From IMG/VR virus record IMGVR_UViG_3300033146_004127, positions 1 to 32,634 of that record: a stretch of 32,634 nucleotides of DNA; one strand, written 5' to 3'. The translations under genes were made by a program, and so were the position numbers. The DNA is from a virus. Shown here in pieces: positions 8,254 to 30,620 of this stretch. The notes beneath the pieces are model-generated. The model was not told the origin of the DNA and made no database searches. It was given only the letters and a program-made list of their open reading frames with translations. Each line of letters opens with the position of its first letter. The first letter of the stretch is position 1.

Positions 8254-9030
8254 TTAATTCGTTTTATCTATTATCATAGAAACACCCAGAACAGCACGCT
8301 CCCCGTTGTCATCACAAAAAGGTTTTTTCCAGGTTTTCAAGGTCAAAACATTCCCGTTGCAATCGGTTATTGTTTCGTAATAGCTAACTTTTACATTATT
8401 TTGGATAACCTGCTGATCGTATTTTAGAAATTGATATACCTCATCTTTTTTATCCGTAAAATCAGAATCAGTTTTTCCGATTAATTTTTTTGGATGAACA
8501 CCATAAATTTTTCCAACGGTTTTATTTGCAATTATAAATTTGCCTTCATTATTTTTGGCGAAAACCAACAGAGGAACAAGATCAATAACATTCCGCAGTA
8601 AACTTCTTTTCATTATTGCATCTTTTTCAGTTGCTTTGGATTTTTCTATTAATAATTTGTATTCCCGTTCCGATTCTTGCAGTTCATGGACTGCAAGAAT
8701 TAATTCCGTACCTGATTTTGTAAATTCTTCAAACATATTTTTATGATCCGATTCGTAAAAATCTTGCTTTCTTCTGAAAAAAAAACCGATCGCTAAAACT
8801 ATAAGAGAAATGATATTTATAGTTGTATATTGGATTATAGCCACTGCTGATTTTATGGTTAAGAAGCTTGAATCATAAAGATTAGTTAGATAATATCTGA
8901 AGAAAATTGGATGCCAAAAATACCAGAGGAATGAAGATAAACAACAGCATAAAATAGTATATAAAAAATACTTTAGCAAATATCTTTTTGTTCTATGTAG
9001 GTTGTAAAACATAGTAAAGAATTTTGTCAT
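8254..9030 (-). CDS. Membrane protein with two spans and a PAS domain
   Basis: The 258-residue protein has two membrane helices near residues 17-43 and 55-83, then a charged helical linker. A PAS domain follows at about 140-258 (DLVPLLVFAKNNEGKFI, NKTVGKIYG, LIGKTDSDF, FCDDNGERAVLGVSMIID). The protein ends right after the PAS domain: no histidine kinase, GGDEF, EAL or methyl-accepting module follows. Its ATG overlaps the stop of the XhlA-like gene (ATGA), so the two are made together. A role in sensing a cell-state signal that affects lysis timing is inference; capture from a host sensor gene is an alternative. Confidence 0.8.
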   Translation of the reverse strand: MTKFFTMFYNLHRTKRYLLKYFLYTILCCCLSSFLWYFWHPIFFRYYLTNLYDSSFLTIKSAVAIIQYTTINIISLIVLAIGFFFRRKQDFYESDHKNMFEEFTKSGTELILAVHELQESEREYKLLIEKSKATEKDAIMKRSLLRNVIDLVPLLVFAKNNEGKFIIANKTVGKIYGVHPKKLIGKTDSDFTDKKDEVYQFLKYDQQVIQNNVKVSYYETITDCNGNVLTLKTWKKPFCDDNGERAVLGVSMIIDKTN

Positions 9031-9251
9031 TTGGTTGCTCCTGTTTTGATAATTGTTACAATTATACCGACACAACCAATTAGAAAAGCGATAACCATTT
9101 TCCATGAAACGCCTGTTTTAAATCCATCCACAGCTTGTTTTATTTGTAACTCTCTGACATCTTTGCTAAGATCATCAAATTTTTTGATGATATTATCAAG
9201 GTCTTTTTGGAATCGTTCAATTAGAAATGATATGTTTAAATTATCGGGCAT
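9027..9251 (-). CDS. XhlA-like coiled-coil membrane protein (holin accessory)
   Basis: The 74-residue protein has an N-terminal helix with heptad-like spacing (FLIERFQKDLDNIIKKFDDL), a short loop and one C-terminal membrane span (VIAFLIGCVGIIVTII). This is the layout of XhlA/hemolysin-type phage proteins that act with holins. I chose the ATG at 9251; a TTG 15 codons earlier is possible, and neither has a strong ribosome binding site. It overlaps the preceding 52-residue gene by 11 bases and is coupled to the PAS gene after it. Confidence 0.7.
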   Translation of the reverse strand: MPDNLNISFLIERFQKDLDNIIKKFDDLSKDVRELQIKQAVDGFKTGVSWKMVIAFLIGCVGIIVTIIKTGATK

Positions 9252-14868: not shown

Positions 14869-14920
14869 TTTATATCTTTTAAGCTTTTAAGCTTTTAAAC
14901 TTTTAAACTTTTAATGTCAA
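14869..14920 (-). promoter_or_regulatory. TTGACA with five 8-bp repeats and a distant TATAAA
   Basis: On the minus strand TTGACA (14920-14915) is followed by five tandem 8-bp units of the form YTTAAAAG (14914-14876) and then TATAAA (14874-14869). The spacing is 40 bases, which equals 16 plus three repeat units. A closer -10 (TAAAAG) exists at 17 bases but is poor. The repeats may be operator sites for the next gene's product, or a slippage tract that changes promoter spacing. Confidence 0.45.
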
Positions 14921-15931: not shown

Positions 15932-16840
15932 TTAAAAATCCTTATTCATTGTGTTCCAGGCTGCCTGGCTCATATCCCCGTTGCGTACCGCTTCCGGGAT
16001 TTCCTGACCGTTGTTTGTATAATTACTAACTGGCAATATTACATCTTCCCACCTCCGGTCTTTAAGCCAGCCCTGCGCCATTTTTGGAGTTAAGCCTTTT
16101 TGTAATATTCTTTCTCGTTCTTTTGCATATGCTTCTGCTCCCTTTAAAATGTCAGCAAGAAGATTATCGTCAATATCTTCAATTTTGTTCCAAACAGTCA
16201 AAGTTGATGCACGGCTTCTTTTGTCACCAAAAGCATCCCAGAACTTTTCAAATGATTCTAATTTATTTCTGTTAATCTTTTTTTGAGGTTGTTTCCTATT
16301 ATCATCATCATTCAAAACATTTTTACTTTCTGCAAATGAAATTTGCAGTATATTTTTTTCCTGTTCCTGTTCCTGTTCCTGCTCCTGTTCCTGCTCCTGT
16401 TCCTGCTCCTGTTCACTGTCTAACTTTTCGGAAGCAATTAGATAACCGTTAGCTAACTGCCCTCTAACCCATTCTGACGTTTTATAATATTCTGATAATA
16501 CTTTGCTTTTTGGTAACGCCTTTAAGCCATTAACACATGCAATGGCTGATTTTGCATTGACTGGTTTGTTATATTTAAACCAGTTCGGGAAACATATTAA
16601 TCTTGTCTTTGGACATCTCAATATTAACCTGTTTTCTAACAGTTCTCTAACAGTTAGTTTTACTTTAGACTTGTCATAACCTGTGTCAGCCTGGATATAT
16701 AAATCATCAAGAATGTATGCTCCCCAAGGTGTAGAATGATGGCATGTCAGCAAATAGAAGAACATGAATTTTGCATCATTTGATAATGCTCTAAATTTTT
16801 CATCATTCCAAAGTTTTGTTTCTATTTTTCGGTATGCCAT
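15932..16840 (-). CDS. Replication initiator-like protein with Glu-Gln repeat linker
   Basis: The 302-residue protein starts with a winged-helix-like domain (KIETKLWNDEKFRALSNDAK, FMFFYLLTCHHS, then DKSKVKLTVRELLENRLI) typical of phage replication initiators (DnaD/O-like N terminus). Next is an uninterrupted (EQ)n tract from about residue 143, then a C-terminal domain (FEKFWDAFGDKRSRASTL..WNKI, then AQGWLKDRRWED) as in phage replisome organisers. GGTGG precedes the ATG. It presumably binds the phage origin and recruits the loader gene product that follows. No iterons are obvious within the gene. Confidence 0.75.
   Translation of the reverse strand: MAYRKIETKLWNDEKFRALSNDAKFMFFYLLTCHHSTPWGAYILDDLYIQADTGYDKSKVKLTVRELLENRLILRCPKTRLICFPNWFKYNKPVNAKSAIACVNGLKALPKSKVLSEYYKTSEWVRGQLANGYLIASEKLDSEQEQEQEQEQEQEQEQEQEKNILQISFAESKNVLNDDDNRKQPQKKINRNKLESFEKFWDAFGDKRSRASTLTVWNKIEDIDDNLLADILKGAEAYAKERERILQKGLTPKMAQGWLKDRRWEDVILPVSNYTNNGQEIPEAVRNGDMSQAAWNTMNKDF
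16361..16414 (-). repeat. 6-bp tandem repeat encoding (Glu-Gln)n
   Basis: Nine perfect-length copies of CTGYTC lie inside the replication initiator gene. They encode alternating Glu-Gln. Copy number can change by slippage without breaking the frame, so the linker length may vary between relatives. Confidence 0.9.
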
Positions 16841-22488: not shown

Positions 22489-22514
22489 CGCCGGGTTCAG
22501 TAAATAACCCGGCG
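22489..22514 (-). repeat. Intercistronic hairpin, CCGGGTT type
   Basis: GCCGGGTT CAGTAAAT AACCCGGC, with one more outer pair, lies 20 bases upstream of a start codon. The hairpin at 24081-24104 differs from it at only two loop positions. Confidence 0.8.
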
Positions 22515-26824: not shown

Positions 26825-26868
26825 AAAAAACAAGGGCAGGGGGGCTTTTTCCCCTGCCCTTGTTTTTT
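26825..26868 (-). terminator. Strong bidirectional terminator with GGCTTTTT loop
   Basis: An 18-bp perfect stem (core CAAGGGCAGGGG / CCCCTGCCCTTG plus six A-T pairs) has the 8-base loop GGCTTTTT. On the minus strand it begins five bases after the stop of the SLOG gene and runs into a T-rich stretch. Its loop matches the hairpin family at 27.4-29.3 kb. Confidence 0.9.
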
Positions 26869-26872
26869 GGTT

Positions 26873-27241
26873 TTAAAAAATGGCGATTTGGTTTTTATTT
26901 TGCAGAGGAAAAACAGAGCATGGGATATTGTATTTTTTAGCCTGGCTAATACTATGCCGGGTCCCGGATCCGGAACCGGGGAAAGCCAAAACATGAGACG
27001 AGATTTGAACAAGTTTTGTATTTCGGATTAATGGCGCTTTTCTCCCATATTTTTTATAATTGGGCTTAAATTCTATAAGCTGAATATTATTCAGCCTGGC
27101 GAAAGATGCCGCGCAAGTGTCGACACCTTTTGCCGCACCGGAAACGATGCAAGAAACCATTGAAAGAGGACATGGCAACGCCTGTAAAATATCTTGATCA
27201 GTCAAAATTCTGTCCCTTCCTCCTACAATTGCGATTATCAT
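26873..27241 (-). CDS. SLOG-family protein (DUF2493)
   Basis: The 122-residue protein has the DUF2493/YspA pattern: IIAIVGGRDRILTDQDI at the start, CIVSGAAKGVDTCAASFARL in the middle and HVLAFPGSGSGTRHSISQAK near the end. SLOG proteins bind nucleotide-type ligands; some act in signalling or defence, and small phage members are untested. AAAGG precedes the ATG; a promoter lies at 27287-27315 and the terminator follows directly, so it is a single-gene unit. Confidence 0.85.
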   Translation of the reverse strand: MIIAIVGGRDRILTDQDILQALPCPLSMVSCIVSGAAKGVDTCAASFARLNNIQLIEFKPNYKKYGRKAPLIRNTKLVQISSHVLAFPGSGSGTRHSISQAKKYNIPCSVFPLQNKNQIAIF

Positions 27242-27286
27242 ATTTAAAACCTTTCTTTTTTTGCTAACACATTAAAATAATAGCCA

Positions 27287-27315
27287 ATAATAGCATTAAG
27301 CTTGCTGAAATGCAA
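27287..27315 (-). promoter_or_regulatory. Predicted promoter of the SLOG gene
   Basis: On the minus strand TTGCAT (27315-27310), 17 bases, TATTAT (27292-27287), about 46 bases before the start codon. Confidence 0.55.
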
Positions 27316-27447
27316 GGATATTATTATTTTAATTGGTGAAAACTGGCATGGTAACTGCAAATTTCTTATTGAATACGTTTTTGACCTTATATAAATGCTT
27401 CTTTTATTCCTTATTCTTTTTAAGATTCTTATACGATACATAACCAT

Positions 27448-27492
27448 TGTTAAGGGTTATAGCAGGGCTTTTTCTGCTATTAGCCCTTAACA
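27448..27492. repeat. Hairpin with conserved loop GGCTTTTT
   Basis: TGTTAAGGG / CCCTTAACA outer stem, AGCAG / CTGCT inner stem, loop GGCTTTTT at 27466-27473. Member of the octaloop family. Confidence 0.8.
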
Positions 27493-27584
27493 TATAATAG
27501 CTTTTATTCCGATTAACGAATTTATACCTTATTCTTTTTTCTTTAAAGTTGATAAGTGGATAGTAACCCTTTTCCCAAGCTGAT

Positions 27585-27663
27585 AAATTTTTTTCATATC
27601 GGTTTTGCGCACGGAAAGAATTTTGCGGAGCAAAAAGAGCGCAAGCCGATGTGAAAAAAATTT
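27585..27663. repeat. Long hairpin in gene-free region
   Basis: Arms of about 25 bases (27585-27610 and 27639-27663) pair with few mismatches. Inside is a smaller stem TTTTGC / GCAAAA around a GGA loop. It does not carry the octaloop. Confidence 0.7.
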
Positions 27664-27735
27664 GCGCCCATAGGGCGTGTTGCGGAGTGAGATATTGGCT
27701 TTTGCCTAAAGGAAATGATGCATGGTGAAATTTGG

Positions 27736-27767
27736 TAGTCAAGACAAAATGTGAGTTGCCTTGACTA
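27736..27767. repeat. Short hairpin, left boundary repeat
   Basis: TAGTCAAG / CTTGACTA stem of 8 bp. Its right part begins a block (27755-27788) that recurs at 30055-30088. Confidence 0.65.
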
Positions 27768-27788
27768 TCAATACAAGTGAGCGTCTTT
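27755..27788. repeat. Boundary direct repeat, left copy
   Basis: GTTGCCTTGACTATCAATAC followed by AAGTGAGCGTCTTT. About 29 of 34 positions match the copy at 30055-30088. The two copies bracket the hairpin region. Confidence 0.65.
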
Positions 27789-27809
27789 GTATAGGCTGTT
27801 TAATATAAT

Positions 27810-27832
27810 TATACAGAAGGCATTGGCAGTTT
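27810..27832. repeat. TATACAGAAGGCATTG repeat, copy 1
   Basis: TATACAGAAGGCATTG followed by GCAGTTT, flanked by the inverted AT-rich arms TAATATA / TATATTA. Copies at 29161, 29351 and 29624. Confidence 0.75.
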
Positions 27833-27854
27833 AATATATTATGCACTGACCATT

Positions 27855-27961
27855 ACTGGTGTTTAAAAGTTAAAGGCTGCTTTTTCCCGAAACCGGAACA
27901 GCACGGTTGTTTGTGCTGTGGAGTCGGGAAAAAGTAGACTTTAACTTCAATCATCACCAGT
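27855..27961. repeat. Long hairpin with loop GGTTGTTT
   Basis: Nested stems: ACTGGTG / CACCAGT, then AAGTTAAAG / CTTTAACTT, then TTTTTCCCGA / TCGGGAAAAA, then ACAGCAC / GTGCTGT around loop GGTTGTTT (27905-27912). An internal asymmetric bulge (AACCGG opposite GGAG) separates the last two. Confidence 0.85.
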
Positions 27962-27973
27962 ACCTCGCTTCTT

Positions 27974-28050
27974 TGAGCGAATTAAAAGATATTTGGTATA
28001 TTGTGGAGCTTAGCGGAACAATATGCCAAATATCTTCAATCAATCGCTCA
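27974..28050. repeat. Long hairpin with GGAGC...AGCGGA centre
   Basis: TGAGCGA / TCGCTCA outer stem, then AAGATATTTGG / CCAAATATCTT and ATATTGT / ACAATAT inside. The apical part GGAGCTTAGCGGA resembles the AGCGGAAC motif of the repeats at 29.4 kb. It lacks the octaloop. Confidence 0.8.
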
Positions 28051-28071
28051 TGCCTTTGCTTATGTTTTAGT

Positions 28072-28114
28072 AAAAAGCAGTATGCCGAGCGGTTTTTTCG
28101 GCATTCTGCTTTTT
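28072..28114. repeat. Hairpin, terminator-like
   Basis: AAAAAGCAG / CTGCTTTTT and ATGCCGA / TCGGCAT stems around a loop containing GCGGTTTTT, similar to but not exactly the octaloop. T-rich in both directions. Confidence 0.75.
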
Positions 28115-28130
28115 TCGTACACGATTAGGA

Positions 28131-28170
28131 GCATATATAAAAGCACGGCTGTTTGTGCTTTTATATGTGC
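28131..28170. repeat. Hairpin with loop GGCTGTTT
   Basis: GCATATATAAAAGCAC / GTGCTTTTATATGTGC around loop GGCTGTTT (28147-28154); 14 of 16 pairs are perfect. Confidence 0.85.
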
Positions 28171-28216
28171 GGGCGCATTTAGGCTGTTGACCTTTGTAGC
28201 ATCCAGTTGAGTCATG

Positions 28217-28246
28217 CAAAAAAAAAGCCCGACCGAAGCCGGGCTT
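28217..28246 (-). terminator. Intrinsic terminator of the 112-codon gene
   Basis: AAGCCCG / CGGGCTT stem with an 8-base loop, followed on the minus strand by nine T bases, five bases after the gene's stop codon. Confidence 0.9.
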
Positions 28247-28251
28247 AATAA

Positions 28252-28590
28252 CTACGCAGGATAACTGATGCCTGCCCAAATCGGCCCAGCCAAGGCACGA
28301 CCTGGCAGGCTATCAGTTGCAACCGGCACGCTGATTACAAACTGAGCGCCTGTGTTCACGCTGGCACCGAAAGCGTTGCGAACCTGTACGCACGGGATGG
28401 ACGCTGGCAACAAACTTCGTACAAAATGCCCAAACCGTGCTATGGTCGCACGGTGTTTAAAGCCAACCACCGCTACAAACCCGGATGCTGATTTAACCGA
28501 CGGACGTATACCCATGAAACAAGCACCAAATGTACAACTAATATCAGCGATACGCTCATACGACGGCAACAAACTTTCAAAAATTTCCAT
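28252..28590 (-). CDS. GC-richer orphan gene inside the hairpin region
   Basis: ATG 28590 behind AAGGAGG starts a 112-residue protein rich in small hydrophobic residues (ADISCTFGACFMGIRPSVKS, FVAVVGFKHRATIARFGHFV, SVNTGAQFVISVPVATDSLP). It has four cysteines, no clear signal peptide and a likely beta-rich fold. Its G+C looks near half, well above its surroundings, and it has its own ribosome binding site and terminator but no neighbours. It looks like an inserted accessory gene. Function unknown. Confidence 0.65.
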   Translation of the reverse strand: MEIFESLLPSYERIADISCTFGACFMGIRPSVKSASGFVAVVGFKHRATIARFGHFVRSLLPASIPCVQVRNAFGASVNTGAQFVISVPVATDSLPGRALAGPIWAGISYPA

Positions 28591-28635
28591 AATTAACCTC
28601 CTTCTTAAAATAAAATTAATATAAACCACTAAACT

Positions 28636-28957
28636 TAGCCCTAACAAAGCATGTGTTTTTTAACATTACAAATGTTTGCACACTCATACGGATTGTAGAT
28701 TTAAACGTGCTTTTTTTTTATTTTATTTCTGGTTTTTAAAAAAATAAGTGCAGATAGTGATATATAAATACTGACAGTTAGTACGGGGCTGTTTCCGTGC
28801 TTACTGTCAGTTTATACATTGCTATCTGTGCTTATTTTTTTTAAAAGCGGGGTTTGAAAAAAAATAAAAAAACTGTGCGTTTAAATCGTACAAGCCGTTG
28901 AGTGTGGTCTTTAGCAAACATTTGTAATGTTAAAAAATACATGCTATAATTGGGCTA
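28636..28957. repeat. Giant 322-bp hairpin with loop GGCTGTTT
   Basis: Two arms of about 150 bases pair over their whole length with scattered mismatches and small bulges. The base is TAGCCC / GGGCTA, the next 30 bases (from AGCATGT) pair with one mismatch, the middle is A/T-rich, and the tip is GACAGT...ACGG around loop GGCTGTTT (28787-28794). No frame of useful length lies within it. If transcribed it would form a very long double-stranded RNA. Confidence 0.9.
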
Positions 28958-29001
28958 CTGTGTGTGTGAGACTCCTAACTTTTGAGCGATAGTGAGGACA
29001 T

Positions 29002-29043
29002 ACAGTAACTTATTGCGGGGCTGTTTCCGCAATTAGTTACTGT
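29002..29043. repeat. Hairpin with loop GGCTGTTT
   Basis: ACAGTAACT / AGTTACTGT and ATTGCGG / CCGCAAT around loop GGCTGTTT (29019-29026), with one mismatch between the two stems. Confidence 0.85.
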
Positions 29044-29064
29044 GTACGCAGTGGTAGCGACCTT

Positions 29065-29141
29065 ACAGCACATTAAAAGCAAATGTAGCAAAAGGGCGGC
29101 TGTTTGCCCTTTTGTGTAGTGCAGCTTCAATCAAGTGCTGT
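29065..29141. repeat. Hairpin with loop GGCTGTTT and outer stem
   Basis: The inner stem CAAAAGGGC / GCCCTTTTG is perfect, with loop GGCTGTTT (29098-29105). An outer ACAGCAC / GTGCTGT stem closes the unit. Confidence 0.8.
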
Positions 29142-29160
29142 TCCTTTGTTTATTGGGTGC

Positions 29161-29176
29161 TATACAGAAGGCATTG
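29161..29176. repeat. TATACAGAAGGCATTG repeat, copy 2
   Basis: Identical to the first 16 bases of copy 1. Here it runs directly into the next octaloop hairpin. Confidence 0.75.
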
Positions 29177-29222
29177 TTTTTATCATTTTGCTGAGGTTTT
29201 TTTCAGCAAGATGATAAAAACA
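29175..29222. repeat. Hairpin with loop GGTTTTTT
   Basis: TGTTTTTATCAT / ATGATAAAAACA and TTGCTGA / TCAGCAA around loop GGTTTTTT (29195-29202), with one G-T pair between the stems. Confidence 0.85.
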
Positions 29223-29234
29223 TCAAATAGATTT

Positions 29235-29266
29235 AACACGATGCACGGCTTTTTGTGCATGGTGTT
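29235..29266. repeat. Hairpin with loop GGCTTTTT
   Basis: AACACGATGCAC / GTGCATGGTGTT with one mismatch, around loop GGCTTTTT (29247-29254). Confidence 0.85.
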
Positions 29267-29345
29267 TTTCAAAAGTAATGCAATGCTATGCTTTTTTATA
29301 GTGGCTGTTGGCAGTGTGTGGAGTGCGCAGCACGTCTACAAGTGT

Positions 29346-29381
29346 GTTACTATACAGAAGGCATTGGCAGTTTGTAGTAAC
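29346..29381. repeat. TATACAGAAGGCATTG repeat, copy 3, in a hairpin
   Basis: TATACAGAAGGCATTG plus GCAGTTT (29351-29373), enclosed by GTTACTA / TAGTAAC. The same core sits in a different stem at copy 1. Confidence 0.75.
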
Positions 29382-29449
29382 GAGCGGAACCCCTCCAAAT
29401 CAGTGTGAAGCAGTAGCAACGAGCGGAACCCCTCCAAATCAGTGTGAAG
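29379..29449. repeat. Two tandem AACGAGCGGAACCCCTCC repeats
   Basis: Two identical 32-base copies (29379-29410 and 29418-29449), starting AACGAGCGGAACCCCTCC and ending CAAATCAGTGTGAAG without that order being broken, with a period of 39. A third partial copy lies at 29723-29743. Confidence 0.85.
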
Positions 29450-29465
29450 TGTTGATTACTGGTAA

Positions 29466-29515
29466 AGTGCCGGGGGAAATGCGCCCGTTGCATAAAGACT
29501 ACCTCCCCCGGCACT
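29466..29515. repeat. G/C-tract hairpin module A
   Basis: Perfect 12-bp stem AGTGCCGGGGGA / TCCCCCGGCACT with a 26-base loop. It is followed at 29516 by CGATGTCACGAATGTGCCGAG minus its last base, nearly the same as after module B. Confidence 0.8.
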
Positions 29516-29623
29516 CGATGTCACGAATGTGCCGAGCTTCGGCGCTATCTCTGCCACTGACCAAGTTGGGGGCAAGCGCTGTAGAATCAAGGTGGCACTG
29601 TGGCAGCGAGTGGGTAATACGTC

Positions 29624-29639
29624 TATACAGGAGGCATTG
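29624..29639. repeat. TATACAGGAGGCATTG repeat, copy 4
   Basis: One base differs from the other copies (A to G at position 8). No enclosing stem is obvious. Confidence 0.65.
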
Positions 29640-29722
29640 CACTTTGAAATGCTTAATAGTCGCGACTTAGTTAAGAAATACTTTGGAGAGCTCCTACACG
29701 AATCGTCGAGAAGAATTGTTAG

Positions 29723-29743
29723 GAGCGGAACCCCTCCAAATCA
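29723..29743. repeat. Third GAGCGGAACCCCTCC copy
   Basis: Matches the first part of the tandem repeats at 29379-29449, then diverges. Confidence 0.75.
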
Positions 29744-29755
29744 AGTTTAAATATA

Positions 29756-29804
29756 GCCGGGGGGGGATGACAGGCGATAGATGCAAGAGAACCCCCCCCT
29801 CGGC
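29756..29804. repeat. G/C-tract hairpin module B
   Basis: GCCG plus seven G pairs with seven C plus CGGC, one bulged T, loop of about 25 bases. It is followed at 29807 by CGATGCCACGAAGTGGCGAG, a near-copy of the sequence after module A, so A and B are diverged copies of one unit. Confidence 0.8.
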
Positions 29805-29826
29805 GTCGATGCCACGAAGTGGCGAG

Positions 29827-30054
29827 TCTCGTTAACGCTAGATAATGACCGTAGGCGATAATGGAGCTAACTTGAAACATGGCAATACTAAATTGAAGCT
29901 AACTTAAAATGTGGTAACTATAATCAGGTCTTTGTGGTGGAGAATCTTGGTAGCGGAATCCTTCGATTCAAGCTAAAATGTACATGCTAAGTGATGCAAG
30001 GCGTGTCAATGGCAAGATAGTGAATGGAAGCTCTTGAACCAATGTAAAACAATT
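29827..30054. other. Gene-free stretch with a short tandem duplication
   Basis: No frame with start signals is seen on either strand. It contains two diverged copies of AGCTAACTTGAAACATGG (29865 and 29897, period 32) and the sequence TAGCGGAATCC near 29952, reminiscent of the AGCGGAAC repeats. I see no strong hairpin. Confidence 0.5.
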
Positions 30055-30209: not shown

Positions 30210-30620
30210 TTAACCTGTCAGCATCATGTATCTAAGCTTAATGGCACGATTCCCAACTTGACCGTACCATCTGCTGTTCTTCATACTTGAACCTACTGCA
30301 TCCCAGTCCTCATGTTTCACTGCTGTAATAAGTTTCTTAAACTTCCGGAACGTACTCGGCCCAAGATTAAATCGCATATCAACTATTGCCATCTGTCGAT
30401 TATTAGACAAAGTACTGAAGTTGGGGAATATTTCCAAAACATCCTTAAGACAATCTTCAATATCATTGTTCAGTATAAACATTGCTTCTTTTTCACTGAT
30501 ACCAACATCATCAAGGTTCCTGCCAACACCAATAGTCAGTTTGCCTGCTGTGTATCTGTACGGTTTTAGATGCAAACCCTCATGGTCAATTAACTGAGCA
30601 TTTAATTTCTTCATATCCAT
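30210..30620 (-). CDS. GH24 lysozyme (T4-type endolysin)
   Basis: The 136-residue enzyme has the T4 lysozyme pattern: LIDHEGLHLKPYRYTAGKLT (catalytic Glu in HEG, Asp/Thr region at YRYTAGKLTIGVG), then VDMRFNLGPSTFRKFKKLI and NSRWYGQVGNRAIKLRYMM with the usual R.......M end. It cuts the glycan strands of peptidoglycan. In the classic E-x8-D-x5-T triad the D position is occupied by Y/R-type residues, so the catalytic set should be checked. No signal peptide. The ribosome binding site GGAGG lies ten bases before the ATG. It is far from the M15 lysis cassette. Confidence 0.85.
   Translation of the reverse strand: MDMKKLNAQLIDHEGLHLKPYRYTAGKLTIGVGRNLDDVGISEKEAMFILNNDIEDCLKDVLEIFPNFSTLSNNRQMAIVDMRFNLGPSTFRKFKKLITAVKHEDWDAVGSSMKNSRWYGQVGNRAIKLRYMMLTG

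Follow-up and report, generated by a model that had tools for sequence, protein, structure and literature searches.

Hairpins with one loop and co-varying stems are a module of a structured noncoding region in an unclassified tailed phage

Introduction

Why would a phage carry, within a short stretch of its genome, a series of hairpins that agree in their loop and differ in their stems? The question is raised by the 32,634-base virus record IMGVR_UViG_3300033146_004127, analysed here over its whole length (the window), in which the initial annotation had described nine hairpins with the apical loop GGYTKTTT between positions 26825 and 29266. The record derives from an unclassified tailed phage with a recognisable portal, terminase, head maturation protease, lambda-D-like head decoration protein, RecT-like protein, single-stranded DNA-binding protein (SSB) and DnaD-like protein, and its recognisable phage genes all lie on the minus strand.

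Results

The loop is constant and the stems co-vary

All nine loops were found at the positions claimed for them and all lie on the + strand (Table 1). The closing stems previously quoted were correct; GCGG/CCGC (29019) had been omitted, and GCAC/GTGC is common to three members. In dinucleotide shuffles of the window, GGYTKTTT hairpins with a stem of at least 4 bp occurred 0.10 times on average and at most once, compared with the nine observed, and shuffles of the region alone gave 0.006. The word itself was found 29 times in the window (12 expected). Nine of the 11 + strand words in the region form hairpin loops (background 1.2% of positions, binomial P 4e-16), and a 4-bp stem was absent at all 18 other GGYTKTTT words in the window. 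Eight of the nine 8-base-loop hairpins with at least six pairs in the region have this loop.

In an alignment of the nine hairpins, six of the eight loop columns and none of the stem columns were invariant. As 93% of the cells were paired, double changes were present at all eight pairs (29 cells versus 9.7 in shuffles) and the covariation score was high (1.07; shuffles scored 0.30 and slid controls no more than 0.23), the stems vary yet keep their pairing. The nine hairpins are paralogues of one genome, and their covariation is therefore not independent of shared origin; co-varying base pairs, a general criterion for a structured noncoding RNA, are in this case present among paralogous copies. 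The earlier view that structure has been selected here, rather than sequence plainly copied, is supported by the invariant loop, the co-varying stems and the single strand. An alternative reading of the loop is a YUKU tetraloop closed by tandem G.U pairs. An imperfect tenth member (28081–28105) scored 15.7 bits with the covariance model R1.

Table 1. Features of the hairpin region, with the uninterrupted Watson-Crick stem beside each 8-base loop
Feature	Position	Strand	Stem	Basis or remark
Hairpin, loop GGCTTTTT at 26843	26825–26868	+	18 bp	Perfect stem
Hairpin, loop GGCTTTTT at 27466	27448–27492	+	7 bp	Loop/stem scan, fold
Long hairpin, loop GGTTGTTT at 27905, with first 5x7 internal loop	27854–27961	+	7 bp	Fold
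Hairpin with second 5x7 internal loop, different apical loop GGAGCTTAGCGGA	27974–28050	+		Fold
Imperfect tenth member, loop GCGGTTTTT, GGTTTTTT word at 28091	28072–28114	+		Model R1, fold
Hairpin, loop GGCTGTTT at 28147	28131–28170	+	12 bp	Loop/stem scan, fold
Orphan 112-aa ORF P0001	28252–28590	-		Shine-Dalgarno-like site and terminator; splits the structured region
322-nt rod (imperfect palindrome), tip loop GGCTGTTT at 28787	28636–28957	+	4 bp; 17 bp with one T-T mismatch and one G.T tolerated	-160.7 kcal/mol, z = -23
Promoter-like site TTGTAA-17-TATAAT, TG ahead of second hexamer	28922–28950	+		Consensus match only; best + site
Hairpin, loop GGCTGTTT at 29019	28998–29046	+	7 bp	Loop/stem scan, fold
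Hairpin, loop GGCTGTTT at 29098, with third 5x7 internal loop	29065–29141	+	9 bp	Fold
CTATACAGRAGGCATTG, three copies (29160, 29350, 29623)	29160–29639	+		Repeat scan
Hairpin, loop GGTTTTTT at 29195	29175–29222	+	7 bp	20-bp stem including one G.U
Hairpin, loop GGCTTTTT at 29247	29235–29266	+	6 bp	Loop/stem scan, fold
Motif AGCGGAACCCCTCCAAATC at 29383, 29422 and 29724; diverged copy at 29952	29374–29974	+		Repeat scan

A wider structured region contains the hairpins as one of its modules

Real and strongly non-random, the hairpin family makes up a single module within a wider noncoding, structured region, which the initial annotation had overlooked. Between the lysozyme gene (30210–30620) and the early genes, the coding fraction drops to about 20% (26.66–30.2 kb), compared with 84% in the first 25.8 kb. 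A SLOG-family gene (26873–27241, - strand) lies inside this gene-poor stretch. The orphan structured region itself spans approximately 27.4–30.1 kb (about 3 kb) and is mostly gene-free, the single short gene inside it being P0001, for which a profile search found no Pfam or PHROG family and structure prediction without an alignment gave a pLDDT of 38, too low to be informative. In addition to the hairpins, the region contains a 5x7 internal loop in triplicate, the rod and several repeated motifs (Table 1).

When folded on the + strand, each 5x7 copy consists of an outer 7-bp stem, an asymmetric loop (5'-WUUAA / 3'-CAAUCAW) and an inner stem starting AAG/CUU. The three copies have the same internal loop yet differ by double changes at six of their seven outer pairs. 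Two of the three hairpins with this loop are capped by GGYTKTTT. The sequence CTTCAATCA had a single further occurrence in the window, on the other strand. A constant loop, co-varying stems, a single strand and a second recurrent structural motif thus characterise the region. The rod, which contains A+T-rich stretches, is an inverted duplication whose arms are identical at 127 of 148 aligned bases (86%). A fourth copy of CTATACAGRAGGCATTG, minus its first base, is present at 27810, and further repeated motifs were found at 27.75–27.83 and 29.16–30.08 kb. Pairing of the cap with the CTATACAG motif was considered and dropped: just ACAG/CTGT is possible, and this is missing in the GGCTTTTT variant.

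The inverted duplication of the rod arms, the GCAC/GTGC stem of three members and the occurrence of intergenic palindromes with GGYTTTTT loops in unrelated Pseudomonadota genomes would all suit palindromic repeats of a REP- or MITE-like kind, or arising by template switching, that have no function for the phage. REP-like elements have a conserved foot tetranucleotide and a RAYT transposase, and REP/BIME-like repeats likewise form clusters of noncoding palindromes. In REPs, however, the stem sequence repeats, whereas the phage hairpins have a repeated loop on differing stems, which is the opposite of what copying a palindrome would give; moreover, the repeat families extend only 21–24 nt around the loop, and the 5x7 loop is kept at three places, which is unexpected from template switching. 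We regard this origin as distinctly unlikely. No common foot sequence was seen by eye in the hairpins and no transposase among the subset of ORFs scanned. Elsewhere in the window, the hairpins at 22498, 22744 and 24089 share nearly the same stem, GCCGGGT(T)/(A)ACCCGGC, and the loops of two of the three are similar (CAGTAAAT, CAGTAAGA); here the stem is constant and the loop changes, the opposite of the GGYTKTTT family.

Strand bias points to a + strand RNA

Mismatches between arms are biased on the + strand, with 18 G.U versus 5 A.C (strand-neutral alignment, P 0.011), and a stricter gapless scan gave a ratio of 10 to 1, whereas elsewhere in the phage the ratio was 1 to 5. G exceeds C on the + strand in all hairpin segments, while the minus-strand genes show the opposite skew, and the folding energy was lower on the + strand for every fold tested except the small 27732 hairpin. 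Together with the promoter-like site, the G.U bias, GC skew and + strand fold stability point to a + strand RNA, which we consider the probable nature of the region. The initial annotation had offered protein sites, RNA sites, single-stranded DNA hairpins and substrates of an unseen element without ranking them; the G.U bias, the GC skew and the second recurrent motif favour + strand RNA.

The promoter-like site lies in the right rod arm and would therefore serve 28957 onward, neither the rod nor the 27.4–28.2 kb cluster. No + strand terminator closing the region was found. Both rod arms carry matching promoter-like sequence, TTGTAA-17-TATAAT on the + strand and TTGTAA-17-TTTGTT on the - strand, and P0001 and the + strand region diverge from opposite ends of the rod.

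G.T is better tolerated than A.C in DNA too, and a G.T bias can arise in single-stranded DNA as well. The hairpins might accordingly be one-strand DNA sites that fold when single-stranded during replication and are read by a replication or recombination protein, for which the phage's SSB, RecT-like and DnaD-like proteins, the A+T-rich stretches of the rod and the location of all hairpins on one strand can be cited. We find this rather improbable: the GC skew follows the pattern of a sense transcript, DNA sites seldom contain internal loops of the 5x7 kind, and a replication origin might more typically be sought in the 8-bp tandem array at 14876–14914, where CTTTTAAA is repeated five times, flanked by short ORFs and close to the DnaD-like gene.

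One member had been taken for the terminator of the SLOG gene, and this fits: the 26843 hairpin follows the SLOG stop immediately, and past the stem the minus strand has a T run. A G+C stem, a T run and a gene end coincide at 26843 and in part at 29247, so that among the nine the 26843 hairpin alone fits clearly as a candidate terminator as well, and the cap is therefore compatible with terminator use. Terminator-like sequences on the + strand were detected by scanning at 26839–26855, 28082–28104 and 29241–29260. That the family as a whole represents ordinary intrinsic terminators with a favoured loop is nevertheless very improbable and largely refuted for the seven hairpins at 27466, 27905, 28147, 28787, 29019, 29098 and 29195, for which scanning of both strands showed no terminator-like T run and at which no recognisable gene ends.

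The region has no counterpart among the sequences searched

In line with the earlier statement that no family with this loop has been described, Rfam gave no gathering match in the window. A covariance-model search beyond this phage had been suggested as a check; R1 recovered no second cluster, either from other phage-related loci totalling 581 kb or from 299 Pseudomonadota genomes. In the former, nothing exceeded 16.4 bits, pattern-selected sites aside, and in the latter (26 candidates scored per genome) there were single matches, several of them inside long open frames. None of the 16 Pseudomonadota loci that were read contained a hairpin cluster. The single close phage relative recovered (G001), with an 81% identical major capsid protein, shares the head genes alone, and the shared part does not reach the hairpin region. 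Relatives of the lysozyme and RecT in viral contigs had no such hairpins, nor had two RecT loci from genomes, and viral contigs yielded no relatives of P0001 or the DUF7659 protein. At the DNA level the region matched no phage; a 40-base match to a plasmid was taken as chance. Exact scans with GCACGGYTKTTTGTGC hit 59 viral contigs, none with a second family member, and AGCGGAACCCCTCCAAAT was absent from viral contigs and its 20-mer from genome contigs. The three matches to CTATACAGRAGGCATTG lacked the other motifs of the region and were taken as chance. At four loci in three Pseudomonadota genomes (L091, L092, L094, L096), intergenic palindromes with GGTTTTTT or GGCTTTTT loops were observed; these have GATTGGCGC-like stems with paired changes and adjoin GGGTCCAGGGC-type repeats.

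Discussion

The motifs of the region match no known family, and the likeness to sponge RNAs and to ornate phage RNAs is one of general plan only. In the sponge RNAs CsrB and RsmZ, several hairpins with different stems carry one constant loop motif within one noncoding RNA, and in CsrB the loop motif is what gets read while the stem presents it. The phage region, a putative RNA, likewise has several hairpins (nine, all on the + strand) sharing one loop motif, but it is far longer. GGA is absent from all nine GGYTKTTT loops, and the phage caps are therefore not a Csr sponge by sequence; nor was a CsrA-like protein found among the phage ORFs scanned. Several CsrA dimers are bound by a sponge RNA (PMC5027483). 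As CsrB illustrates, a multivalent binding RNA requires a constant cap presented on stems of free sequence.

For the large RNAs GOLLD and ROOL, a tRNA neighbourhood is usual, not obligatory. These are large structured noncoding RNAs of phages and prophages whose function is unknown (PMC12286853). The phage region is similarly large, structured and noncoding but has no tRNA island and no recognised pseudoknot plan; no tRNA genes are present in the window, and neither the GOLLD nor the ROOL Rfam model was listed at E up to 5 in 26.7–30.2 kb. An ornate RNA of this kind, in which caps and 5x7 loops would act as loop and receptor in tertiary or intermolecular docking with no need for a protein, has in its favour two recurrent kinds of module and repeated motifs across 2.7 kb, and the precedent that GOLLD and ROOL assemble via loops without protein (PMC12286853). 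We judge it unlikely, given the lack of an Rfam match to any such family and of a tRNA nearby, the unequal numbers of caps (9–10) and 5x7 loops (three), a cap that is not self-complementary and the ORF that interrupts the region.

The explanation that we prefer, as a tentative one, is that one or more structured noncoding RNAs are encoded on the + strand of the region and that several copies of one RNA-binding protein bind their caps, the RNA serving as a scaffold or sponge. Such an RNA would be transcribed opposite to the phage genes and be assembled from reusable parts. The apical cap GG-YUKU-UU, on stems that are free in sequence provided that pairing holds, would present the same site about ten times. 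Copies of a single protein of host or phage origin may then occupy the caps, and their binding would make the RNA a multivalent scaffold or a titrating sponge. The phage ORFs that were scanned included no recognisable RNA-binding protein. It is conceivable, and we suggest this guardedly, that the region stands for an undescribed class of large phage RNA with interchangeable modules (cap GG-YUKU-UU, 5x7 loop) on varying stems, acting as a multivalent platform during infection.

If transcribed, the region would add a new member to the large structured RNAs of phages; its repeated cap would point straight to the binding site, and a single 24-nt hairpin could serve as bait for the partner. A modular RNA with a readable repeated site would be an easier target than GOLLD and ROOL, whose functions stay poorly understood. 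The case also illustrates that a structured RNA may be recognisable in a single orphan genome from its own paralogous modules, without an alignment of species. Among other features of the window, an ORF on the - strand (8254–9105) matched a PAS fold (PF08448, E 7e-8), and a 12-base tandem repeat (TCCTGTTCCTGC, 4.7 copies, 16358–16419) lies within the DnaD-like gene.
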